Positions 7,514 through 60,204 of a stretch of 64,000 bases of DNA are shown piece after piece. Within the stretch, counting starts at the first letter, position 1. Each line of letters starts with the position of its first letter. Both the position numbers and the translations under genes were made by a program. This DNA is from Clostridioides difficile CD160 (GTDB lineage: Bacteria; Bacillota; Clostridia; Peptostreptococcales; Peptostreptococcaceae): contig NZ_AVHW01000086.1 of the NCBI RefSeq assembly GCF_000449425.2, positions 124,001 to 188,000 of the forward strand, given 5' to 3'. Below the pieces are notes generated by a model. The model was not told the origin of the DNA, did not search any database, and saw nothing but the letters and a program-made list of their open reading frames with translations.

Positions 7514-9799
7514 TCACTCCTCATCATTTTTTGGTAACCCAAATAAAAGTTCTTCAAAATTTGAAATTGGCATTGGTTTTGCAAATACATAACCTTGAAT
7601 ATAGTCACAACCTATTTCTTTTAGCATTTTTACTTGATTATAATCTTCAACACCTTCTGCCACAGTAGTCATGGAAAGTGATTTCGCCATACCAATGATA
7701 CTACTTACTACAGACTTAGTACGACCATAGTTGTTTTTAGTATTTCTAAAAAATATCTTATCTAATTTTAATGTATCTACAGGTATATCCTGTATAAGAT
7801 TTAATGAAGAGTATCCACTTCCAAAATCATCCATAGAACATCCAAATCCCATTGAATGAATTTCATCAATAATGGCAGATAGGCGTTCAGTGTCTTCATA
7901 TACCATATTTTCTGTCAGCTCAATCTCAATATACTGTGAAGGTACATTATAACGTGAGAAAATTTCATAATACTTATCTAAAAATTTTTCATCTTTTAAT
8001 TGAATTCTTGAACAGTTTACAGAGATTTTTACTAAATCTTTACCTTCATCAAACCATCTTTGCAAAGTCATACAGACATTTTCAAACACCCATAAATCTA
8101 CGTTTACAATAAATCCATTTTTCTCAAATAATGGGATAAATGCATCTGGATAAATCATTCCCTCTGACTTACTAATCCAACGGACTAATGCCTCTGCCCC
8201 TCCTATTTTTTCATTTTCAGTCATATATTTAGGCTGTAGATATACTTGGAATTCTCCTTCTTCTAAGGCACTTTCCATCATATCTTCTAATTGTTTTTCA
8301 CGTACTAATTGTTGACGAACTTTTTCATTATAAATCGAGTACTTTATCTTATTATTTTTAAAATCTTTTGTAGAATCACGCAGTGCAAGCTTTGCACGGT
8401 CTGCCATGTATGGAAATTCCATAGAAGTATCTGTAATTATAAAAACACCAAACTGCATAGAAAGAGAAGCCCATTCAAACCCATACTTTCCAGAATTTTT
8501 CATTATGGCATTATACCAATCTTCAAATCTTTTAGTTAGAGAAGTGTCTTCACTATATGTTATAAGTATACAGAAGTTATCTGCAAACAATCTTCCCATA
8601 CATTCATTAGGAGCTAAAAGAGATGTTATACCATCATATACTCCACGTAATATAGAATCTCCAGCTTCTCTTCCAAACTGGTCATTTAGCATTTTAAACT
8701 TTTCAATATTCATATATACAAGTGCATGTTGTTCAGATGATTGTTTCAATAATTCATCTGAGATATTATAAAATCGTTGTATTGTATTTCCTCTAGTTAC
8801 AGTATCTACATAAGCAATATACTCTAAGTTCTTCTTATGTCTATAAAAAGATATTATCAAAGCTATTGTAAGAATTGCAAATGCTAGTGTTATAAAACCA
8901 CATAATAATAATGTAATCTTCAACAATAAGTTTGACTTTGCATTTACTACAGATACTGGCACAAAAGTTAACAAGTACCAATCCTCCTGTCCAATAGGAA
9001 TATATACCATATATTCATGTGAACCATTTAATTTAAATCCTACTTGCCCACTAAGATTATTGTTTATATCATTTTTCATCTTATTAAAATCACTATTAGA
9101 GTCTAACTTAGATTGACTTATAGTGTTCAGTATATTATACCCTGTTTTTTCAGCAATAGGAGATGACGAACGAACTACAACAGTACCATCTTTATTGATA
9201 ATATGTGAATATGCTTGATTATTAAATGAAGTCATAGATAACACTTTATCAAAAGATTCAGGAGAGTAACTTATTGCAAGTGCAACTATATTTTTATTAT
9301 CAATAACCACACTATCTAGTGGTACAGCAAAAACTATACATTCCTTATTATCTATCATTTGTGATGTAGACATAGACTCTTTCTTATTTATGACAGCATC
9401 TTGAAGGTATGTGTCACTACTAAGAGATACTGATTTACCATCAGAATTGTATGCAACTCCATTTTCATCAATCATCATAATATCTTGACAATTCCAATAT
9501 TTTTTTTGAGAATCCATCATAGGCTTTGCTTTATGAAAAGAATCTATATTTGTATTTTTTATCATTAATGCTATTGTATCTAATATAGAGTAACTGTCAT
9601 CAATAATCTTACTCACATTACTCCCTATTCTATTAGATATTTCTTGAAGATAGTTACTACTTTCTTCTTGCACAGTATTTCTCAATTTGCAATAGTATTT
9701 AAAACATACTATACCCATAAAAAAACATATAACTATGAATACTATCGCTATTGTTCTAACCATTTGTGCGCTGTTTAACGTTTTTCTTTTTACACTCAT
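7514..9799 (-). CDS. Membrane sensor with Cache-like, degenerate GGDEF and EAL domains (c-di-GMP phosphodiesterase)
   Basis: A 761-residue protein, likely hydrolysing cyclic di-GMP. Two membrane helices (about residues 15-35 and 290-315) flank an external region of the double-Cache type. The GGDEF domain is degenerate: the signature site reads R-L-F-A-D-N-F. The EAL domain keeps Q-P-K-Y, A-E-A-L-V-R-W, E-N-M-V-Y-E-D and D-D-F-G-S-G-Y-S-S-L, so it should be active. The start at 9799 has AAGGGG upstream; an upstream in-frame start at 9898 would add a low-complexity tail without a ribosome site. It is co-transcribed with the downstream lipoprotein. Cyclic di-GMP turnover in this species is tied to motility and adhesion. 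Confidence 0.85.
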   Translation of the reverse strand: MSVKRKTLNSAQMVRTIAIVFIVICFFMGIVCFKYYCKLRNTVQEESSNYLQEISNRIGSNVSKIIDDSYSILDTIALMIKNTNIDSFHKAKPMMDSQKKYWNCQDIMMIDENGVAYNSDGKSVSLSSDTYLQDAVINKKESMSTSQMIDNKECIVFAVPLDSVVIDNKNIVALAISYSPESFDKVLSMTSFNNQAYSHIINKDGTVVVRSSSPIAEKTGYNILNTISQSKLDSNSDFNKMKNDINNNLSGQVGFKLNGSHEYMVYIPIGQEDWYLLTFVPVSVVNAKSNLLLKITLLLCGFITLAFAILTIALIISFYRHKKNLEYIAYVDTVTRGNTIQRFYNISDELLKQSSEQHALVYMNIEKFKMLNDQFGREAGDSILRGVYDGITSLLAPNECMGRLFADNFCILITYSEDTSLTKRFEDWYNAIMKNSGKYGFEWASLSMQFGVFIITDTSMEFPYMADRAKLALRDSTKDFKNNKIKYSIYNEKVRQQLVREKQLEDMMESALEEGEFQVYLQPKYMTENEKIGGAEALVRWISKSEGMIYPDAFIPLFEKNGFIVNVDLWVFENVCMTLQRWFDEGKDLVKISVNCSRIQLKDEKFLDKYYEIFSRYNVPSQYIEIELTENMVYEDTERLSAIIDEIHSMGFGCSMDDFGSGYSSLNLIQDIPVDTLKLDKIFFRNTKNNYGRTKSVVSSIIGMAKSLSMTTVAEGVEDYNQVKMLKEIGCDYIQGYVFAKPMPISNFEELLFGLPKNDEE

Positions 9800-38974: not shown

Positions 38975-39391
38975 TTAATAAATACTATTCATTTTGATTC
39001 TTTTGGAAAGTAACAATATTTTATCTAATATTTCATTTATCACAAAGATAAATTCTTCATCACTTTTTCCTGTGGGGTCATTCAGTCCCCAATCTTCTCT
39101 ATATATACATGGAAGATATGGACATTCTACATTACACCCCATTGTAATAATAATATCAACTTCGGGTATGTCTTTTAGTAGCTTTGAATATTGTTCTTTT
39201 TCCATATCTATATTATAAATTTTTTTCATTAAACGTACAGCATCTTGATTTATTTGTGACTTCACTTCAGTACCTGCTGAATAACTTTCAAAAATATCTA
39301 AACCTAGTTTCTTTCCTAATGCTTCTGCTATTTGACTTCGACAAGAGTTATGAACACAGATAAAAGCTACTTTGGGTTTATAGGCTACCAT
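38975..39391 (-). CDS. arsC: Thioredoxin-coupled arsenate reductase (ArsC family)
   Basis: A 138-residue low-molecular-weight phosphatase-fold protein. The P-loop C-V-H-N-S-C-R-S (CX5R) is present, as are a second pair of cysteines in M-G-C-N-V-E-C-P and the D-W-G-L-N-D-P motif, all typical of the thioredoxin-type arsenate reductase that turns arsenate into arsenite. It overlaps the preceding redox gene by 14 bases and is the last gene of the arsR-permease operon. Confidence 0.88.
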   Translation of the reverse strand: MVAYKPKVAFICVHNSCRSQIAEALGKKLGLDIFESYSAGTEVKSQINQDAVRLMKKIYNIDMEKEQYSKLLKDIPEVDIIITMGCNVECPYLPCIYREDWGLNDPTGKSDEEFIFVINEILDKILLLSKRIKMNSIY

Positions 39392-39727
39392 GTTTTTCCC
39401 TTTCTATAATTGCTTTCACTTCATCAATTGTTAAGACCTTACCATATGATACAACCTTGCTATTTATAACAAGTGCAGGAGTACTCATTACTCCATAGCT
39501 AGCAATTTGAGTAAAATCAGTTATGTGCTCAATATTGAAATCTAAATTCATTTCTGAAATTGCTGTACGTGTTGCATTTTCTAAAGCGATACATTTTGCA
39601 CAACCAGAGCCTAGAACTTTGATTCCATCTTTTTTCTTTGTCATTTCTGCATGTTCCATAGTTTCTGATGTACAATTTCCACTACAGCAACATGATTTTT
39701 TTCTTCTTTTTTATCAAATAATTTCAT
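39378..39727 (-). CDS. Thioredoxin-like small redox protein with an A7 frameshift in its N-terminal tail
   Basis: The C-terminal part (from 39659) is a small redox-active disulfide protein of about 80 residues with the active site G-S-G-C-A-K-C and T-P-A-L-V-I-N. Upstream, an excellent AGGAGG site and ATG at 39727 start a frame (M-K-L-F-D-K-K-E-E-K) that leads into S-C-C-C-S-G-N-C-T-S-E only if one base is gained in the run of seven A (39696-39702). The Cys-rich tail then joins the conserved domain. No ribosome site lies before the internal ATG at 39659. Slippage on the A run, a mutation or a sequencing error are all possible. Its neighbours suggest a role in metalloid reduction or trafficking. 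Confidence 0.75.
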
Positions 39728-39746
39728 ATTAATTTCCTCCTAGTTT

Positions 39747-40763
39747 TTATAATATTAAGAATGTATGCAAAACATTAAACATATAACCAACAGCGATAAT
39801 ACCAATTGTACAGATAGCTATAAATAAGGCAAGTAGTTTTGGTTTTACAGCTTTTTTAAGCATAATCATAGATGGTAAACTTAATGTTGTTACAGCCATC
39901 ATAAATGCAAGTACAGTTCCTAATTGTGCACCCTTGATTAGCAATGCTTCTGCAACAGGTATTGTTCCAAAAATATCTGCATACATAGGAATACCAACCA
40001 ATGTTGCTAAAATAACACCAAACGGATTGTCACTACCTAGAATTGTTTCTATCCAAGTTTCTGGAATCCAGTTGTGAATTATAGCACCAATTCCTACCCC
40101 TACTAAAATATAAGGGAATACTTTTTTAAATGTTTCACTAACTTGTTCTTTCGCATATTGAACTCTATCTTTTCGTGTCAAAGATGGTGAATCAATATCT
40201 ACATGACTTGCATTTTGTATAAAGTCTTCAACATATTTTTCCATGTGCAATTTTTCGATAATAGTACCACCAATAACTGCAATTAATAGTCCAACTATTA
40301 CATAAACAATTGCAACTTTTGCACCAAATATACTCATAAGGAGTACAAGACTTCCCAAATCTACCATAGGAGATGAAATCAAGAAAGAAAAAGTAACTCC
40401 TAAAGGAAGCCCTGCACTTGTAAAACCTATAAAAAGTGGTATAGAAGAACAGGAACAAAATGGAGTTACTGTCCCTAATAACGCAGAAACAATATTTGCT
40501 CCAATACCATGAAAGCGACCTAAAATTTTCTTGCTTCTTTCTGGTGGAAAATAACTTTGTATATAAGATATAATAAAAATCAAAATACATAATAGTATAG
40601 TGATTTTTATAACATCATAAAAAAAGAATTGAACACTACCACCTAGTCGTGTAGTATTATCTAATCCTAAAAATGATAATGTGTTGCCAATAAAACTATT
40701 TAGCCATTTCATGCCAAGAATTTGGTCTTGAAAAAACAGTATGCCTATTTGTAATATTTCCAA
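39747..40763 (-). CDS. COG0701 (DUF318/ArsP-like) permease
   Basis: A 338-residue membrane protein with about eight helices and the family signature P-F-C-S-C-S-S-I-P-L, whose vicinal cysteines are used for trivalent organoarsenical binding in ArsP. A second family motif with T-L-V-G-I-P-M-Y-A is in the later half. The context (arsR upstream, redox protein and arsC downstream) makes it the efflux component of a metalloid resistance operon. An operator copy lies 25 bases upstream of its start. A second member of the family is at 58228-59313. Confidence 0.88.
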   Translation of the reverse strand: MEILQIGILFFQDQILGMKWLNSFIGNTLSFLGLDNTTRLGGSVQFFFYDVIKITILLCILIFIISYIQSYFPPERSKKILGRFHGIGANIVSALLGTVTPFCSCSSIPLFIGFTSAGLPLGVTFSFLISSPMVDLGSLVLLMSIFGAKVAIVYVIVGLLIAVIGGTIIEKLHMEKYVEDFIQNASHVDIDSPSLTRKDRVQYAKEQVSETFKKVFPYILVGVGIGAIIHNWIPETWIETILGSDNPFGVILATLVGIPMYADIFGTIPVAEALLIKGAQLGTVLAFMMAVTTLSLPSMIMLKKAVKPKLLALFIAICTIGIIAVGYMFNVLHTFLIL

Positions 40764-40787
40764 AACAATTCCTCCATTCTATTTTTC

Positions 40788-40807
40788 ATATCAATTTTAT
40801 TTGATAT
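40788..40807. promoter_or_regulatory. ArsR operator copy between arsR and the permease gene
   Basis: ATATCAATTTTATTTGATAT, a perfect 7-base inverted repeat around six bases, the same half site as at 41157 and 41215. Confidence 0.75.
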
Positions 40808-40841
40808 GTTTTTTTTAATAAAAGCCATCTGTAGATGACTT

Positions 40842-41144
40842 TTATTTGCAAGATTCTGTATCTGTATTAGGTGTTGTGATTTCTAATAAACGCTTACTAG
40901 CATATTCACTGCCCTTTTTACTAAGGCTATAATGTGTCCATTTTCCATCTTGTCTTGATGATACTATGCCAGATTCACACAATATTTTCATGTGATAAGA
41001 TAGTGCAGATTGACCAATATTCATTTTATCAATTAAAACACAAGCACATTTTTCGCCACTCCTTAAAAGTTCGAGAATTAAAAGCCTTTTTTCATCACAA
41101 AGGGCTTTAAATATTTTTGCATCATTTTTATAGTTAATCATCAT
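40842..41144 (-). CDS. arsR: ArsR/SmtB-family metalloregulator
   Basis: A 100-residue winged-helix repressor. The recognition helix region is S-A-L-S-Y-H-M-K-I-L-C-E-S-G-I-V, and a cysteine pair (K-C-A-C-V) lies in the helix where ArsR proteins bind arsenite or antimonite; another cysteine is near the C-terminus. It is the first gene of the operon and is flanked by copies of one inverted repeat (41157-41176, 41215-41234, 40788-40807), so it should repress its own promoter. The start has GAGAGGTG upstream; a second ATG follows directly. Confidence 0.9.
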   Translation of the reverse strand: MMINYKNDAKIFKALCDEKRLLILELLRSGEKCACVLIDKMNIGQSALSYHMKILCESGIVSSRQDGKWTHYSLSKKGSEYASKRLLEITTPNTDTESCK

Positions 41145-44655: not shown

Positions 44656-45966
44656 TTATTTTTCAAATACTGTTTGACCATCTACTTCTGTAGTTAAAGA
44701 GTTTAATGCTTTTTCTACAAGGCCTCTTCTTAAGGCTTTTTCTTCTGTAGGGTCAAGCGCTGGATTTCCAAGTGGATGAGGTATTGCTATAGTTGGAACT
44801 ATTCTATTAGCCCCTACTGTTAATGAAATAGGTACTACTGTACACATATGAACTACTGGAAGTCCAGTTTTTTCTATTTCTTTTACCATCGTTGCACCGC
44901 AACGAGTACAAGTACCTCATGTAGAAGTTAATATTACTGCATCTACACCATCAGCCACTAATGCTGCTCCAATTTCAGAAGCATATTTTTTAGAGTTTGC
45001 AACAGATGTACCGTTACCTACAGTTGTATAGAAAGTTTCATGTAATTTTCCAATTACACCTTCTTTTTCTAAATCTCTAAGAACATCAACAGGTAATACT
45101 CTATCTGCATCTAAATTTGCATACACTGGGTCATATCCACCATGTGCAGTTTCATAAGTCTCTTCTGTTAAGTCCATAACTCCTGCTATAGAATAAGTTC
45201 CATATTTAGAAGCTGAAGAAGACTCTATTCTATCTGGATTTCCTTTTGGAACTATACCACCAGAAGTAACTAAAGCTATTTTGCATTTTGATAAATCTTT
45301 TACAGCGTTGCTTGGGTCAACTCTATCAAAGTTTGGCATTGGGTATTCAGTTTCAAATGGTTCACCTTTTATTTTCTTAACTAACATGTCAACAGCTCTC
45401 TTAGAACCTCTGTCTTCATGGAAGTAGTTAACTCTTATTCCTCTAGCTATGTATCCTTCATCTTTAGGAGTTCCAATTTCTTCTCCATTAGCAAGTTTTA
45501 CTGCAAGTTTTGCTATTTTAGGAAGTGCTTTTCTCATACCTGCTGCAGAATCAGAAGTTTCTACTACATAAACATCTTTTTTGAACATATCTGCACCTGG
45601 ATTTTCAATATACATACCTGTTAGGGCTGGTATATTTAAAGCATCTTTTACAACTTTAGTTATTGTTCCAGCAGCAACTCCATATCTACCAGCATTAAAT
45701 GCAGGACCAGCTATGAAAAGTTGTGGTTCAAAACCTTTTATCATTCCTAAAACTTCTTCACTTGCACTGTCTATATTTTCATTGAAGTAGCTATCTCCAC
45801 ATACTACTGTTCCAACTATTTCAATATCTTCACCTAATAATTTATCAAGTTGTAAACTTATTGGAGGTAAAGTTTCTGCCACATGTGGCTTAGTATCAGC
45901 TTTTTCTTCTCCACCTATACCAGCAAAGAACTGATTAATATAATGTACCGCTTTTAGTTTTCCCAT
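44656..45966 (-). CDS. grdB: Glycine reductase selenoprotein B
   Basis: Substrate-specific selenoprotein of glycine reductase (436 residues), which activates glycine as a Schiff base and forms selenocysteine-bound carboxymethyl. An in-frame TGA at 44917-44919 encodes Sec350 in the context L-T-S-T-U-G-T-C-T-R-C-G, the known GrdB position. A hairpin CGTTGC-GGT-GCAACG begins 12 bases after the TGA and is a good bacterial SECIS candidate. Reading it as two genes would be wrong, since both parts are in frame and match the full family length. Confidence 0.96.
44890..44904 (-). promoter_or_regulatory. Candidate SECIS hairpin of grdB
   Basis: A six-base-pair stem with a GGT loop, 12 bases downstream of the Sec codon, where bacterial SelB-binding hairpins lie. 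Confidence 0.65.
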
Positions 45967-45997
45967 CTCTTAGTTTCACCCCTTTTGCTTTTAGGCA

Positions 45998-46471
45998 TTA
46001 AAATTTACAAAATTCTTCTCTTATACCAGACATTTCTTCTTCTATTTCTTCAACTTCTAAAACCATTTCCATCATACTTATTTGATCTTCATATACAGTT
46101 TCATCAAATAAAGCTTTCATTGGTTCCTCTACAACATGGTAAACGCTTAATCCTAAAGCAACTCCAGCAAGTGGTCCAGCGAAAGTTGGATCCCCAGCAG
46201 TTACTGTTTCGGCTGCAAGACCTGCAGCTTCGGCTTCAGCAGCACCTAGTAAAATCACAACATTTTCAGCTCCGAATTTATCAGCAGCTTCTTTAACTCT
46301 GTTTTGATTTTCTAAGTCCATAGCCCCAGCAGCAGTTCAGACAAAGCATTCTGTAGATGAGAAAACAACCTCTGCTCCTTCTACTGTTTTTACACATTCT
46401 TCTATCGCAGGTCCTGGTATACCATCACGGTCACCTATTATAAGAACCTTTTTATTACTAAGTAAACTCAT
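45998..46471 (-). CDS. grdA: Glycine reductase selenoprotein A
   Basis: A 157-residue redox selenoprotein that accepts the carboxymethyl group and is reduced by thioredoxin. The in-frame TGA at 46337-46339 encodes Sec45 in E-C-F-V-U-T-A-A-G-A-M-D, the conserved CxxU motif of GrdA. The N-terminus [16 protein letters not shown] is typical. AAGGAGG precedes the ATG. It lies between grdE and grdB. Confidence 0.97.
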
Positions 46472-53675: not shown

Positions 53676-54317
53676 TTATAATAATACTTTTTGTTTAAGT
53701 TTAAATATTTTATATGATTCTACTATTGCTTCATTAATATCTAAGCAATATACATCTTCATCATCCGATAATCCTGCTTCTTTTGTCCAAGCATCAAAAT
53801 CATTCTTCGTCCAGAAGAAATTCATTATATTTCAGCAACTTGCCGCCCAATTTGAATATTTATCAAGATTTATATGAAGCACTCTTAAATGTGGATTATT
53901 CACATATTCAATTTTTTCGTTTTTTATAAATATTTCTATTTCTTTACCTGTAACACTACACATAGAATTTATTCTTACATCTTGATTAAATGTACAAGAA
54001 GTTCCTATAGCATCTATTGCACACATTGCACTGAAACTTCTACCATCGCTCAAAGTTACTTTATGATTAGTTGGTAATGCTGATACAGGATATATAAAAT
54101 TTATACTATCTCCATCAACAACTATTATATTTTTCTCAATAAAATATTGTAGTGTATTTTCTATATATTCTTTTTCTAATTTCAAATTATTACTTATACA
54201 TTCAGTCACTTCTTTAAGTGTAGCACTAGAACCTTTATCTATTATCACATCCATAATGGATAGTCTTATTTTTTGTTGTACATTATCCAAACTATTGTAT
54301 TTTTCTATTTGACTCAT
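53676..54317 (-). CDS. saoL: MerB-like organometal lyase with selenocysteine
   Basis: A 213-residue homologue of organomercurial lyase MerB. It keeps the catalytic Cys and Asp of MerB in F-S-A-M-C-A-I-D-A-I-G (compare W-C-A-L-D in MerB) and V-T-G for the following loop. The third active-site position is in S-C-U: the frame meets TGA at 53832-53834 (residue 162) directly after a cysteine, then continues N-I-M-N-F-F-W-T-K-N-D-F, matching the C-C-H-V-H-F-F segment of MerB, to a stop at 53676. A stem-loop TTCTTC-TGGAC-GAAGAA follows the TGA. Read without Sec, the protein would lose its conserved C-terminus. It is the last gene of the operon. The substrate may be an organomercurial or another carbon-metal compound; this is inference. 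Confidence 0.88.
53803..53819 (-). promoter_or_regulatory. Candidate SECIS hairpin of saoL
   Basis: TTCTTC-TGGAC-GAAGAA, six perfect pairs and a loop with GG, starting 12 bases after the Sec codon. Confidence 0.6.
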
Positions 54318-54329
54318 ATCTACTCCTCT

Positions 54330-55082
54330 TTAAACCTCATAACACTTCGATAAAGTATCAGTTAATCTAGTCTTATATTCTTCATATTTTTTGCTTCCTC
54401 TAACTCTAGGTCTTGGAATATCTATATTTATATCATCAATAACTCTACCTTTATCCCTTGACATTACTATAACTCTATCACTCATATATACAGCTTCGTC
54501 AACATCATGAGTTACCATTAATGCAGTTATTTTCTTTTTTATCCATATCCTTTCTAACTCTTCTTGTAAGTTTTGTCTCATTTGAAAGTCAACAGCTCCC
54601 AGTGGTTCATCCATTAACAATACTTCTGGATTGCATGCTAAGGCTCTTATCATAGCTACTCTTTGTTTCATTCCGCCTGATAATTGATGAGGAAATAACT
54701 TTTCTTTTCCTTTTAAGTCTGACATCACCAAGAGTTCTTCTAACATTTCTTCTCTTTTTTCCTTTTGTATTTTCTGCTGTTTCATAGGAAATAGAACATT
54801 TCCTCTTATAGTTTTCCAAGGAAATAAAGCGTAATTTTGGAATATAAAAGCTCTATCTATGCCTGGTTTTTTAACTTTTTTATCATTTATAAAAACATCT
54901 CCACTTTCTGATTTTTGAAATCCTCCTATTATAGTAAGTAAAGTAGTCTTTCCACATCCTGATGGCCCTAAAAGGCAAACAAATTGACCATTTTCTATAT
55001 CTATGCTTATATCTTCTAAAACCTTTGTATGTACTTTATTATTTACAAATGTTTTATTTATATCTCTTACGCTTAACTTCAT
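54330..55082 (-). CDS. saoA: ABC transporter ATPase of the nitrate/sulfonate/taurine type
   Basis: A 250-residue ATPase. Walker A is G-P-S-G-C-G-K-T-T, the signature L-S-G-G-M-K-Q-R, Walker B L-L-M-D-E-P and the switch histidine in V-T-H-D-V-D-E-A. It resembles SsuB/TauB and pairs with the permease whose stop codon overlaps its start (TAATG at 55082). The ATG at 55082 follows GGAGG by 11 bases. Its place in the selenoprotein operon suggests import of the same compound that the MerB-like enzyme acts on. Confidence 0.9.
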   Translation of the reverse strand: MKLSVRDINKTFVNNKVHTKVLEDISIDIENGQFVCLLGPSGCGKTTLLTIIGGFQKSESGDVFINDKKVKKPGIDRAFIFQNYALFPWKTIRGNVLFPMKQQKIQKEKREEMLEELLVMSDLKGKEKLFPHQLSGGMKQRVAMIRALACNPEVLLMDEPLGAVDFQMRQNLQEELERIWIKKKITALMVTHDVDEAVYMSDRVIVMSRDKGRVIDDINIDIPRPRVRGSKKYEEYKTRLTDTLSKCYEV

Positions 55083-55888
55083 TAATCTGCAAACCTCCAT
55101 CTACAAAGGATTTTATTTACAAACTTTAATACTCTATCTATTATAAATCCTATTAAAGCTGCAAATATCATAAGCCCAATTAATACATCTGTATGCATTA
55201 ACGTTTGAGCTTGTACCATTGAGTAACCGAGACCGGCACTCGTAGCTATAAACTCAGCTCAGATAACAGACATCCATCCTGTACTTATAGCAATTCTCGA
55301 ACCAGTTAATATATCAGGAAGAGACGCTGGTACTATTACGTTTGTAAATATCACAATTGGTGATGCTCCCATACTTCTAGCCGCATTATAATAATCTTTT
55401 GATATTGCTCTTACACCTTGAATAGTATTTAAGATTATAGGAAAAACGCCTGAAAAAGCTATTAAAAATATTGTTGGCCCATCTCCTATACCAAACCATA
55501 CTATAGTAAGAGGCACCCATGCCATTATAGGAACCTGTCTTACAGAATCTACTACTGGAGATAAAACTTTTTCAAAAGTTTTAGAAAATCCCATGATAAA
55601 TCCTATTGGAAGTCCAAACAATAGTGCATACATAAAACCTTTAAGTACTCTCTGTAATGTTATAAAAAGATTAGTAACTGTCTCTATATCTGTTATGCAA
55701 TAAAAGAAACCTTTTATTACATCTACTGGCATTGGAAGTAGTAAAGAACTTCCTATATCTTTCGCTGCAAAATGCCAAACTGAAAATATAATGACTAAGA
55801 GTATTATCTTATATAAAATATCCATACCACTATCAGATTTTTTCTTAGTTAATTTATCTATTTTATCTTTAGAAATTTTAATTTCCAA
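55082..55888 (-). CDS. saoP: ABC transporter permease with an in-frame Sec codon
   Basis: A 268-residue SsuC/TauC-type inner membrane protein with about six helices. Its frame meets TGA at 55259-55261 (residue 210) in G-W-M-S-V-I-U-A-E-F-I-A-T-S-A-G-L-G-Y, a region that in ordinary SsuC reads W-x-x-x-V-A-A-E-M-x-x-x-S-x-G-L-G. Family similarity continues on both sides of the TGA, and the last helix follows it, so read-through as selenocysteine is the best reading. A hairpin follows the codon. It begins with TTG, overlapping the previous gene by 31 bases, behind GGAGGAAATAAGAAA. A Sec residue inside a membrane permease is very unusual. Confidence 0.85.
55221..55255 (-). promoter_or_regulatory. 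Candidate SECIS hairpin of saoP
   Basis: A nested stem (GAGT with ACTC, inside it CGAG with CTCG around TGCCGGT) starts 3-6 bases after the Sec codon. Confidence 0.5.
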
Positions 55889-56646
55889 TTTCTTATTTCC
55901 TCCATATCTATATTTCTTATATTCTTGTACTGTTTCAGTGCTTTTTTAAATGTAGCTTCATTATTTAAAGCATCAACACTTTTATTGTAAAGTTTTATAA
56001 AATCACTATATCCTTTACTTTTTTTAAATTCTTTGCTTACAACTAATACATAAGTATCATAATCACCTAATTCAGTTGTAGGTTTTCTTATTCCTTCTAA
56101 TCCGATTGATTTTATACAGTCCATTACAACACCATCTACTAGATTGCTTTCTAATCCATATGCTAATGCAGTCCCTAATAACGGAGATATTTCTACATTT
56201 CCATAGTATTTCTTCACTAATTCTGATTGGTAATTTCTATTTTGAATGATTCCAATTCTTTTGGGATTACTCTTACTTAATAAAAATATATCTGAATTTT
56301 GAACTACTGTACCAACAATTTCAAATCCACTAGTTGCATTTACATACTGTTTTGCTGCATCTTTACATATGATTGCTATATCTATTTCCTCTGAACTCAG
56401 AGCCCATTGCATTGTACTTGCTCAGCAATCATTAATTGTAAAAGTATCCATTATATCACTTACTTTTATATTTTCAAAGTAGTCCCTATTTACCATATAA
56501 TTTATTACAAAACCAGAGGTATCATCAGATACCCCTATTCTTAGTTTGCCTTCTATTTCTTCTTTATCTTCAAAATTAAAAAATATTATAAATATACTTC
56601 CCAAAATAATAATAAAAAGTATTATTATATTTTTTATATTCTCCAT
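55858..56646 (-). CDS. saoB: Substrate-binding-like membrane-anchored selenoprotein
   Basis: A 262-residue protein with one N-terminal membrane helix (about residues 5-24) and a periplasmic-binding-type fold related to nitrate/sulfonate binding proteins (K-L-R-I-G-V-S-D-D-T-S-G-F near the start, D-G-V-V-M-D-C-I in the later half). The frame meets TGA at 56422-56424 (residue 75) in T-I-N-D-C-U-A-S-T-M-Q-W-A-L, just before the typical helix of the binding fold, and continues for 187 residues in the same frame. The C-U pair could capture a soft metal. A hairpin with a GT-containing loop lies 22 bases after the TGA. The gene symbol is assigned from memory and may belong to the other binding protein. 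Confidence 0.85.
56389..56402 (-). promoter_or_regulatory. Candidate SECIS hairpin of saoB
   Basis: CTCTG-AGTT-CAGAG, five perfect pairs with a G-T in the loop, starting about 20 bases after the Sec codon. Confidence 0.55.
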
Positions 56647-56650
56647 TTAT

Positions 56651-57742
56651 TTATAATACCTTTGCTTTCCAATCTTCATAACTCATACCTTCAGGAAACT
56701 CTGGATTAACTTTTTCTTTTATAAATTTATCAAAATCATCTGCTCCACAAGAATCCAATAAGCTCGTATCAATTGTATCTTCATATTTAGGTATATCATC
56801 TAATGCTTTTAAATCTTTATACATTTGTAAATTATTTTTATATTCTTCTCCTGTAACTTTCCAAGTAAGCGTTCTACCTTCTCCAACTGTCTTTTTATAA
56901 ATAGTTCTAAGTGCAACTTCTTCTTCTACATTATAATATTTTGCAAATATCTTAGCAGCTTCAGCTGGATTTGTATATATGTATTCTATTGCTTTTGTAT
57001 GAGCCAAAACCAATTTTTTTGCTAAATCTGGATGTTCTTTTATAAAGTTTTTGTTTAATGAGAATGAACAACAGTTATATTCTTTACCATTAGCTTTTTC
57101 TTTATATTGAGTAGATGCTATTATTTTTCCTGCACCATCATTTTCAGCTACAGAACCCCAAGGGTCGCAAGATGTAAAAGCTTGTATTTTTCCAGTTTTA
57201 AGAGCTAAATATTTATCTTTGTCTGAATCCATATTTACAATTTCATATTTTGATGGGTCAGTTGGTAGACCTGTTTCTGGCCCATAATCACTTGTCCATA
57301 AAAAATCACTCATGTCTGTTGCAATTTTTTTACCTACTAAATCTTTAGGTTCTTTTATATCTTTTGAAACTATTAAGTATTCAGAACCTCCAGTATGATT
57401 GTTAGCTGCTATTGTTATTGGTGAACCCTTAGGTATAGCTCCCACTAGACCTTTTGTCCCTATATAACCAGCATCCATTTTTCCTGCTGCCATAGCTTCA
57501 GGAACTTTACCATTTCCGACAGTTTTTACATTAAGACCTAAATCCTTATATATTCCAGCTGCTTCTGCTACTGGTCCAGCAGTCATATGGTCACAGTTAT
57601 AATACCCTACTGTTATTGTATAATCATCCTTTCCAGCTTTTGCTTCTTCTTTCTCTTTTGGTTTACTACTACAGCCTGTTAGTATAGATGCCCCCATTAC
57701 ACTAACTAAGATTAATGCTTGAATCTTCTTAGATACTCTCAT
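56651..57742 (-). CDS. ABC transporter substrate-binding lipoprotein (NMT1/SsuA-like)
   Basis: A 363-residue lipoprotein with lipobox I-L-T-G-C and residues about 40-360 in the NMT1/SsuA family (V-G-Y-Y-N-C-D-H-M, G-L-N-V-K-T-V-G-N-G-K-V, D-P-W-G-S). The many cysteines at places that would face the ligand are unusual: N-C-D-H, T-S-C-D-P-W, Y-N-C-C-S-F and D-S-C-G-A. They suggest a thiophilic ligand such as a metal or organometal. It lies between the Cys-Cys protein and the Sec-containing binding protein. It has no Sec codon. Confidence 0.87.
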   Translation of the reverse strand: MRVSKKIQALILVSVMGASILTGCSSKPKEKEEAKAGKDDYTITVGYYNCDHMTAGPVAEAAGIYKDLGLNVKTVGNGKVPEAMAAGKMDAGYIGTKGLVGAIPKGSPITIAANNHTGGSEYLIVSKDIKEPKDLVGKKIATDMSDFLWTSDYGPETGLPTDPSKYEIVNMDSDKDKYLALKTGKIQAFTSCDPWGSVAENDGAGKIIASTQYKEKANGKEYNCCSFSLNKNFIKEHPDLAKKLVLAHTKAIEYIYTNPAEAAKIFAKYYNVEEEVALRTIYKKTVGEGRTLTWKVTGEEYKNNLQMYKDLKALDDIPKYEDTIDTSLLDSCGADDFDKFIKEKVNPEFPEGMSYEDWKAKVL

Positions 57743-57776: not shown

Positions 57777-58235
57777 TTAACAACATTTGTCCATATCTTC
57801 TCCAAATAAATCAACAAACTTGTTGCCTTCTACCCTATAAATTGCATACCCTACATTACCATTCTTAGAACCTGACACTATTACTTCTATTGGTGGTTTA
57901 TCATCAATATTTTTAAAAGTTATGGTTTGATTCTCTATAGGTGCTGGTATTGGTTTTGTTATATAATGGCTGTTTTTATCAGAAACTACCACTACCATTT
58001 CATTTGAATTATTACCTTTTTTATATATAACTACTAAATCTTTTTCTCCATCATTATTTAAATCTTCTTCAGCACAAGTTATTATATCTTCTTTATAATT
58101 TTTTCTAAAATACTCTAATGTTTCTTTATTCACATTTGGAATAGAGGCATCTTCTTTAAGGTTATCATCCACTATTTTTGATAAAACTATTAATGCAACT
58201 ACTACACAGGATATTATAACTATCTTTTTAAGCAT
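57777..58235 (-). CDS. saoC: Membrane-anchored protein ending in Cys-Cys
   Basis: A 152-residue protein with an N-terminal signal anchor (about residues 4-22) and an external domain with D-L-N-N-D-G-E-K-D-L-V-V (EF-hand/FG-GAP-like pattern). It ends in M-D-K-C-C-stop, i.e. a vicinal cysteine pair at the free C-terminus, well placed to hand over a thiophilic ion. This matches the protein type I remember as Cys-Cys-COOH (seleno)protein SaoC, in which one Cys can be Sec. Its start overlaps the end of the permease gene by 8 bases. Confidence 0.82.
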   Translation of the reverse strand: MLKKIVIISCVVVALIVLSKIVDDNLKEDASIPNVNKETLEYFRKNYKEDIITCAEEDLNNDGEKDLVVIYKKGNNSNEMVVVVSDKNSHYITKPIPAPIENQTITFKNIDDKPPIEVIVSGSKNGNVGYAIYRVEGNKFVDLFGEDMDKCC

Positions 58236-59313
58236 TATTCCCTATGACCTCTTTCATCTTTGGTATTATTGATTTAAATGCAAATAAAATAATTAAAATT
58301 GTACATACATATTCAAAACTATCTGGTATATTTAACATTAGTTTATTTGCCAACTGTATTGAAGAATTTGTTGTATCTAAATTTACTGAATTGTTGTTTA
58401 CTAAGAGTAAATTTGTTATGTATCCAATTATTATTGAGGATAATGTCAAAGTTACTGAATATATAATAACAGTCCTTTTTCCAATGAGTTTAAACATACT
58501 TATAAGCTCTGGTAAATTTGTAGCTGCACCAGCTATTAGAAATGTTATCGCTATCCCAGGAGATGCTCCACTTGCAACAAGAGCTGCTATAAATGGAATA
58601 TGTCCTACTGCACATACATACATAACACATGCAAGTATTGCTATACTTCCAAGTGATAGCAAACCTGGATTCCCCAAATATTTTTGAATTATACTATTTG
58701 GAAAAATTGTTGTTATAAAACCTGCAAAAAGCATTCCCATTACTACATATTTACTAATGGTAAGAGCTAACTCTCCAAAAGACCACTTAAGCCCATCAAT
58801 CATATTTTCTAGAAAACTTCTTTTTTCTTCTTCTAATTCTATTACATCTTCATCTGAATCATTATGCAAAGATAATTCTTCTTTTCCAAAGCAGTTTCCC
58901 AAAAATCCTACTAAAAATGGTACTAAAAAACCAGATATTAGATAAATAGTTGTAACTTTAGGTCCTAAAAGACCTAGACAAAGAACTACAGCTATTGGGT
59001 TTATTATTGGAGTTGATGTCATAAAAGCAAGTACTGGTCCTAAATATGCTCCTGAATAATACATGCTTATACCAAGTGGTATTACCCCACAACTACATAT
59101 TGGTAAAAACATTCCTGATATAGTACTTTTAATCAAAGAAGAAAATTTCTTATTTCCAAGTTGTTTTTGAAACCTTTTTGGAGTTAAAACATTGTGGAGT
59201 ATACCTGCCAATATGAAACTTATCATAAGCCATCCTGATGCTCCATTCAATGTAACTATAGAAGCTACTATCGTCTCTTTAACTCCATTTAAAACAATTT
59301 CTAATATATTCAT
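58228..59313 (-). CDS. saoE: COG0701 (DUF318/ArsP-like) permease of the Sao operon
   Basis: A 361-residue membrane protein with about eight helices and the family signature P-I-C-S-C-G-V-I-P-L-G, later T-S-T-P-I-I-N-P-I-A-V and C-A-V-G-H-I-P-F. It has a long charged cytoplasmic loop (about residues 145-175). It is the likely efflux partner of the operon, as the homologue ArsP exports organoarsenicals. The other copy in the window (39747-40763) belongs to an arsR operon. Confidence 0.88.
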   Translation of the reverse strand: MNILEIVLNGVKETIVASIVTLNGASGWLMISFILAGILHNVLTPKRFQKQLGNKKFSSLIKSTISGMFLPICSCGVIPLGISMYYSGAYLGPVLAFMTSTPIINPIAVVLCLGLLGPKVTTIYLISGFLVPFLVGFLGNCFGKEELSLHNDSDEDVIELEEEKRSFLENMIDGLKWSFGELALTISKYVVMGMLFAGFITTIFPNSIIQKYLGNPGLLSLGSIAILACVMYVCAVGHIPFIAALVASGASPGIAITFLIAGAATNLPELISMFKLIGKRTVIIYSVTLTLSSIIIGYITNLLLVNNNSVNLDTTNSSIQLANKLMLNIPDSFEYVCTILIILFAFKSIIPKMKEVIGNNA

Positions 59314-59339: not shown

Positions 59340-59597
59340 TTAACTATTATTTATAGCTTCTACTATTGCCTTTTCAATTGTATCTTTATTTAATCTGTCA
59401 TATTTCTTTTTCTGATTTATTATTAATGTTCCTTTTGTTATAATTCCATATTTTTTTACATATGAAAAATCTTTACCTGCCTGATACAGTTTCACTTCCA
59501 ATTTATCAGTATATTTTTCTGACATTTTTTTTATAAACACTCCATGCTCATCACAAGATGGTCAAGTATTTATAAATTCAACTAAAACTTTAGACAT
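59340..59597 (-). CDS. saoT: Thioredoxin-like selenoprotein with U-P-S-C active site
   Basis: An 85-residue thioredoxin-like protein. It starts at 59597 (M-S-K-V-L-V-E-F-I-N-T) behind AGGGGATG. The TGA at 59562-59564 (residue 12) gives T-U-P-S-C-D-E-H-G, a UxxC redox motif exactly where a thioredoxin has CxxC, followed by E-V-K-L-Y-Q-A-G and Y-G-I-I-T-K-G-T-L-I-I-N. Without Sec reading only an unsupported fragment beginning at 59540 would be called. The next gene, the permease, follows after 26 bases. Its role is probably to reduce the metal or the Cys/Sec pairs of the partner proteins. Confidence 0.88.
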
Positions 59598-59685: not shown

Positions 59686-60018
59686 TTATAATGTTATGAC
59701 TTGGTCTACACCTGCACTACCTAAACAAGCATATAAGTTTGGAAAGCATCCAATCGTAGCCCCATCAACCAAGTTATTCTCTATACCTCTCTCTATAGCA
59801 CATTGGTCACAAGCCATTATTATCATATCCGTTTTTTTATGTAATTCACTTAGTTTTTCTCCTATTGGATTTCCTTTCGATAAGAATAATGTATTATCCA
59901 TAAAGAAAAACATCCCTAGAACATCTACTCCATGAGTTCCTTGTTCTAATTGTGGTATTATCATTTTGTCTAAAATCTTATGTACATTAGTACTATTAAA
60001 GATATATGCTACTTTCAT
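59686..60018 (-). CDS. saoD: DsrE-family protein of the Sao operon
   Basis: A 110-residue DsrE-like sulfur-carrier-fold protein. Cysteines are in C-D-Q-C-A and G-C-F-P-N-L-Y-A-C-L-G, with V-D-G-A-T-I-G between them. DsrE proteins carry persulfide sulfur; in this operon it may carry sulfur, selenium or a metal. The start at 60018 has GGAGGAATAAAA. It is the first gene of the operon. Confidence 0.8.
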   Translation of the reverse strand: MKVAYIFNSTNVHKILDKMIIPQLEQGTHGVDVLGMFFFMDNTLFLSKGNPIGEKLSELHKKTDMIIMACDQCAIERGIENNLVDGATIGCFPNLYACLGSAGVDQVITL

Positions 60019-60204
60019 TTTTATTCCTCCATCCATTTTTTTCCTAAATTTTATACAAATTTTTACATATACAATTATATTATAAGTTCTTCTATATTTA
60101 TATGTAAAATAGATAATAGCTATATCATTAAAAGTATATATAGTATTTATCTATATTTATTAAATTATTGATTAACATTTTTCTATTCTTATTAATTTTA
60201 ATAA

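Follow-up and report, generated by a model that had tools for sequence, protein, structure and literature searches.

The question raised by this locus is whether an in-frame TGA in a MerB-like gene encodes selenocysteine (Sec) and, if so, which residue of the MerB active site the selenium replaces. MerB is a well-known enzyme that breaks carbon-mercury bonds, and selenium is a very tight ligand of mercury. A Sec at the catalytic position that holds the metal would give a handle on the part that selenium plays in bond cleavage or product release. The gene lies on the minus strand at 53676..54317 of the window, by which we mean the whole 64,000-nucleotide stretch of Clostridioides difficile CD160 DNA that was analysed. 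Reading from 54317 to 53676, the frame contains one TGA (53834-53832) and is then open to a TAA. With the TGA taken as Sec it encodes 213 residues, with the motifs MCAIDA and WAASCUNIMNFF and a Cys codon directly preceding the TGA, which falls at residue 162. Translation table 11 ends the protein at 161 amino acids and leaves 51 MerB-like codons downstream of the TGA. Against the Pfam MerB profile (cut-off 27 bits), the protein that stops at the TGA scores 60.1 bits and the read-through form 91.1 bits, which argues that the stretch behind the TGA belongs to the MerB domain.

A sequence-only reading of this DNA had described the gene as a MerB homologue, and this is borne out by the Pfam MerB match, by a more specific family profile and by the predicted fold; the coordinates that it gave are correct on the minus strand. 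The specific profile is NCBIfam NF040728, named 'MerB-like organometallic lyase SaoL', which the protein matches with 215.9 bits against a cut-off of 140, while the cut-offs of the curated MerB families were not reached (51.9 vs 193 bits and 47.1 vs 200 bits). The closest relatives, found in the species collection, are 87 to 94% identical and are labelled Clostridioides difficile. The SAO system is credited to a 2023 paper by Haft and Gwadz (doi 10.1128/jb.00259-22), whose title names Clostridium difficile. In the parts available of a 2026 review that cites it, SAO stands for 'Sec-assisted organometallic', the operon is given six selenoprotein genes, and SaoL is listed with the motif CU (PMC13188914); a MerB-like selenoprotein is also listed in the available part of a second paper (PMC9312934). 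Given the NF040728 score, the C. difficile relatives and this literature, we are dealing with a known family in the genus in which it is known. SaoL is thus an already named family and not a new find, and in family score, C-U motif, operon and host our tests showed no difference from it. We put at about 0.72 the probability of the full reading, namely that the locus encodes SaoL, the MerB-like lyase that belongs to the SAO operon of this Clostridioides genome, with Sec at the site that holds the metal.

All nine sao genes are present in the window on the minus strand, every one above its family cut-off. Upstream of saoL follow saoA for the ABC transporter ATPase (54330..55100; 437.1 bits vs 360), saoP for the ABC permease (55082..55888; 430.2 bits vs 295), saoB for a substrate-binding (seleno)protein (55858..56646; 259 bits vs 140), saoX for a substrate-binding subunit (56651..57742; 499.7 bits vs 300), saoC, whose product has a C-terminal Cys-Cys (57777..58235; 186.8 bits vs 80), saoE for the efflux transporter (58228..59313; 561.3 bits vs 325), saoT for a thioredoxin-like protein (59340..59597; 129.4 bits vs 65) and saoD for a DsrE-related protein (59686..60036; 185.8 bits vs 169). 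SaoT, SaoB, SaoP and SaoL have one in-frame TGA each, which lies at 59564-59562 in SaoT (U-x-x-C), at 56424-56422 in SaoB (within a Cys-Sec pair) and at 55261-55259 in SaoP. Whereas the available text of the review gives six selenoprotein genes for the operon (PMC13188914), the window has these four with a TGA, and its SaoC and SaoX are in the non-Sec form, without a TGA. The saoT gene, which sits between saoD and saoE, is absent from the list of open reading frames of at least 90 residues; it is easily overlooked because its TGA comes early.

We surveyed the operon in 29 relative loci by tblastn with the Sao proteins of the window (e-value up to 1e−3); these comprise 9 of the 11 loci from the species collection (all but L007 and L010) and loci from 20 of the 27 further order genomes that scored over the SaoL cut-off. 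The TGA is present in SaoL at all 29 loci and in SaoP at all 27 loci that have this gene. SaoB was found at 25 of the 29 loci (TGA in 23, Cys in 2), as was SaoT (TGA in 16, Cys in 9), and SaoC was found at 23, with Cys as the last position in every case. Two loci, L012 and L082, have SaoL without the remaining sao genes nearby, apart from one generic ABC ATPase match in L012, and tblastn found no SaoT, SaoE, SaoC or SaoB in the stretch examined at L073 and L078. At L012 the TGA-containing SaoL (8821-9465) shares its stretch with selD-like (AIR synthase fold) and TusA/DsrE-domain genes, and at L082 (10010-10684) it lies behind genes that by eye are xanthine dehydrogenase-like and near a Se/S-carrier-like gene (PF11823). 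A search of a plasmid collection, from which records very near this genome were possibly excluded, gave no near match to the SAO operon. Two genomes of the same genus (G104 and G114) had no SaoL match in the order search, so not every member of the genus has the operon.

An AlphaFold2 model of SaoL, with Cys in place of Sec, has a mean pLDDT of 87.7. In structural comparison it matches MerB2 (5c17; Z 20.9, rmsd 3.5, 199 residues aligned) and MerB (3f0o; Z 20.5), with the first non-MerB row at Z 6.2, and all 11 Foldseek matches with an e-value up to 0.001 are MerB or MerB2. The prediction thus confirms the MerB fold, though not the exact position of the Sec. The pLDDT falls below 50 at residues 156-160, just before the Cys-Sec pair, Cys stands in for Sec, and the comparison gives aligned ranges only, so the position of the Sec rests on sequence alignment. 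As a check on the TGA lying in the active site, the model therefore goes part of the way: it has the MerB fold and gives no sign that the TGA falls outside the active site, but it lacks residue-level resolution there. Nor does the fold by itself prove lyase activity, since MerB2, the best structural match, has Ser at the place of MerB Asp99.

This bears on an alternative in which SaoL would be a MerB-fold metal carrier or binder and not a lyase, its Cys-Sec pair receiving from the importer a metal or metalloid that it passes on. A weak match of the fold to the copper chaperone NosL (7og7, Z 4.8), the Ser at the Asp99 place in MerB2 as the nearest solved relative, and the scores under the MerB cut-offs would all suit such a protein. 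SaoL, unlike MerB2, keeps the Asp, and the C-x-x-D motif that contains it is retained at 38 of 38 loci, some of them duplicate sequences, and in the Cys forms of SaoL described below. We consider a carrier unlikely. With MerB proper (NF033555 and NF009710; 3f0o and 5c17 among solved structures) SaoL has in common the fold (Z about 20), the equivalents of Cys96 and Asp99 and an invariant Cys159 column. The differences from MerB are that SaoL has Sec for Cys at 159 and an extra Cys at 158, that it is encoded in an operon with an ABC importer, that it scores under the MerB cut-offs and that its host CD160 has no MerA over the cut-off.

For the MerB-like lyase, the place of the selenium follows from how the residues line up with the solved MerB chains. 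In the available part of one paper, Cys96, Asp99 and Cys159 are described as essential, strictly conserved and catalytic in MerB (PMC8261052), and in that of another, Cys96 and Cys159 hold the Hg (PMC4525700). In phmmer alignments against the solved chains, Cys99 and Asp102 of SaoL align with MerB Cys96 and Asp99, as had been proposed from the C-A-I-D motif. At the C-terminal motif, Cys161, Sec162 and Asn163 lie over Phe, Cys and Ser of 3f2g, which by its title is the C160S mutant of MerB. The Ser therefore marks position 160, and Sec162 corresponds to Cys159, with Cys161 on Phe158 and Asn163 on Cys160. The Sec column (with Sec written as C) is invariant in an alignment with five other MerB-family proteins, and again when Sec and Cys forms are aligned together with three MerB-family proteins, whereas the columns on either side vary. 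A Cys just before the catalytic column also occurs in three MerB-family proteins (L042, L043 and L045).

The sequence-only reading had set the C-U pair on the Cys159-Cys160 pair of MerB, with selenium beside the catalytic cysteine, where it could help in removing the metal. Both proteins do have two adjacent residues there, and the Cys-Sec pair does sit in the C-terminal active-site motif as had been proposed. The mapping itself is one residue off and is rejected by the alignments, which set the Sec on the catalytic Cys159 itself, and a Sec at Cys160 is hard to reconcile with an invariant column flanked by variable ones; we regard it as very improbable. With Sec162 at Cys159, selenium is predicted to replace the catalytic, metal-holding cysteine and to be a direct ligand of the metal. 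Selenium may have a part in processing the metal product.

We infer the following path by analogy with MerB in all steps beyond the fold and the conservation of residues. The ABC importer SaoX-SaoB-SaoP-SaoA would bring in an organometal compound, and SaoL would bind its metal through Cys99 and the Sec162 selenolate, at the places of MerB Cys96 and Cys159. Asp102, at the place of MerB Asp99, would manage the proton by which the carbon-metal bond is broken. The metal might then be accepted by Cys161 or by one of the small proteins SaoT, SaoC or SaoD, and SaoE would export it. Mercury is our leading guess for the metal. No MerA scored over the cut-off in the CD160 genome (best match 362.6 bits vs 454.45), and in a check of 25 genomes, 23 of them with SaoL, no general link between SaoL and MerA was found, MerA being over the cut-off in 1 of 23 other SaoL genomes (G207). 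For these reasons the released metal is, as a rule, probably not reduced by MerA.

The TGA is conserved at the SaoL site far beyond this genome. It is present in 11 of 11 relatives in the species collection and in all 28 genomes over the SaoL cut-off in a search of 393 genomes of the order, CD160 included. That search matched 30 genomes, and two loci under the cut-off were dropped (L040, a MerB-like protein with Cys, and L041, which by eye seems unrelated). Searches of 398 genomes of the phylum and 391 of the class added four further genomes, two with TGA (G774 and G1023) and two with Cys (G574 and G700); four loci of the phylum search (L093-L096) scored under the SaoL cut-off and were not counted. 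Genomes that recur between the order, phylum and class searches were entered once; with CD160 included, this makes 32 distinct genomes in which SaoL passes its cut-off, 30 with TGA and 2 with Cys. The Cys codon before the TGA and the C-x-x-D motif are kept at all 38 loci from L002 to L039, among which some sequences are duplicates. At the column of the TGA, homologues have Cys, both in G574 and G700 and in MerB proteins. In the Cys-form locus of G574 (L098, contig C85) all four proteins SaoT, SaoB, SaoP and SaoL show Cys where Sec would stand, while that of G700 (L099, contig C8) combines a Cys SaoL with a TGA in SaoP.

SelB, tRNA-Sec and SelA each scored over their cut-offs in the CD160 genome, and SelB did so in 6 of 6 genomes checked. 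These six include G574 and G700, so the Cys form is not explained by a loss of Sec decoding, and we ruled out this origin. From the conservation of the TGA in 30 of 32 genomes and the presence of the Sec machinery we infer that the SaoL TGA is decoded as selenocysteine, in agreement with the earlier proposal of a Sec next to a Cys at this codon. That the TGA is an ordinary stop, giving a 161-residue protein or marking a decaying gene, is scarcely credible even though the evidence for a SECIS element is weak, because the MerB-like sequence extends past it, 30 of 32 genomes have TGA and 2 have a natural Cys form, and the invariant Cys159 column would go missing.

Directly behind the TGA we noted a possible SECIS hairpin with a TTCTTC/GAAGAA stem and a G in the loop (53787..53834, minus strand). 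The pair of Phe codons reads TTCTTC at 37 of 38 loci, and Phe codons in twelve long genes of the window are TTT 202 times and TTC 42 times. In the same set of genes the Thr codon ACG has 4 uses in 284. Against the hairpin, 35% of synonymous resamplings also yield the six-pair stem, and 3.8% an energy at or below that observed. The consensus fold of the alignment has four pairs at -1.01 kcal/mol and no double change. In the named stem 94.6% of cells are paired, barely more than the 94.1% mean of the shuffles, though slid versions reach 52-78%; a double change occurs once in it, and its covariation score is attained by 38 of 500 shuffles. Rfam gave no SECIS match at the SaoL site, and a loose threshold added a chance snoRNA match alone. 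Taken together, the evidence for a SECIS hairpin behind the SaoL TGA is no more than suggestive. In the same window, by eye, glycine reductase genes with in-frame TGA lie at 44656-46471, and Rfam SECIS_4 matches at 44879-44916 in one such gene.

Two of the phylum loci under the SaoL cut-off (L093 in G482 and L094 in G508) are MerB-like proteins with the motif C-T-TGA-PQINFF, in which the TGA likewise falls at the Cys159 column and C-x-x-D is kept. They differ from SaoL in the motif, C-T-U, and are by score nearer to MerB, with 110.1 and 103 bits on NF009710 (cut-off 193) and 65.5 and 59.8 bits on the SaoL profile. Both genomes have SelB over the cut-off. In G508 the MerB-like gene, with the TGA at the Cys159 column, occupies 8746-9378 of its stretch (L101, contig C1). 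In G482 the C-T-U gene is part of a cluster (L100, contig C47, 622-3389) with TGA-bearing MerT, HMA-domain and CopZ-like genes: the MerT gene has its TGA in G-I-C-U (PF02411, 41.3 bits vs 32.9), the HMA-domain gene, MerP-like by eye, has T-U-E-S-C, and these are accompanied by an ABC permease and the CopZ-like gene with R-U-C. The available part of the review (PMC13188914) already lists a mercuric transport protein and CopZ-like proteins that occur as selenoproteins. Our literature search found no paper on the C-T-U MerB group, which does not prove that there is none. It is conceivable, and we suggest it tentatively, that in no fewer than two branches of the MerB family, SaoL and the C-T-U group, Sec has replaced the catalytic Cys159. 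If this is true, the C-T-U cluster would amount to a system for mercury detoxification based on selenium, and mercury would then be the likely metal of SAO too.

Because the SaoL family had already been named, the gain from this locus lies in the residue assignment and in the Cys forms. Placing the Sec at Cys159 and not at Cys160 guides the choice of mutants, and SaoL proteins that naturally have Cys could be used as controls. Elsewhere in the window, at 38975-41144, we noted by eye a small cluster of its own, with genes for ArsC-like, ArsE-family thioredoxin-like and ArsR-like regulator proteins, together with a SaoE-related permease that scores under the SaoE cut-off.
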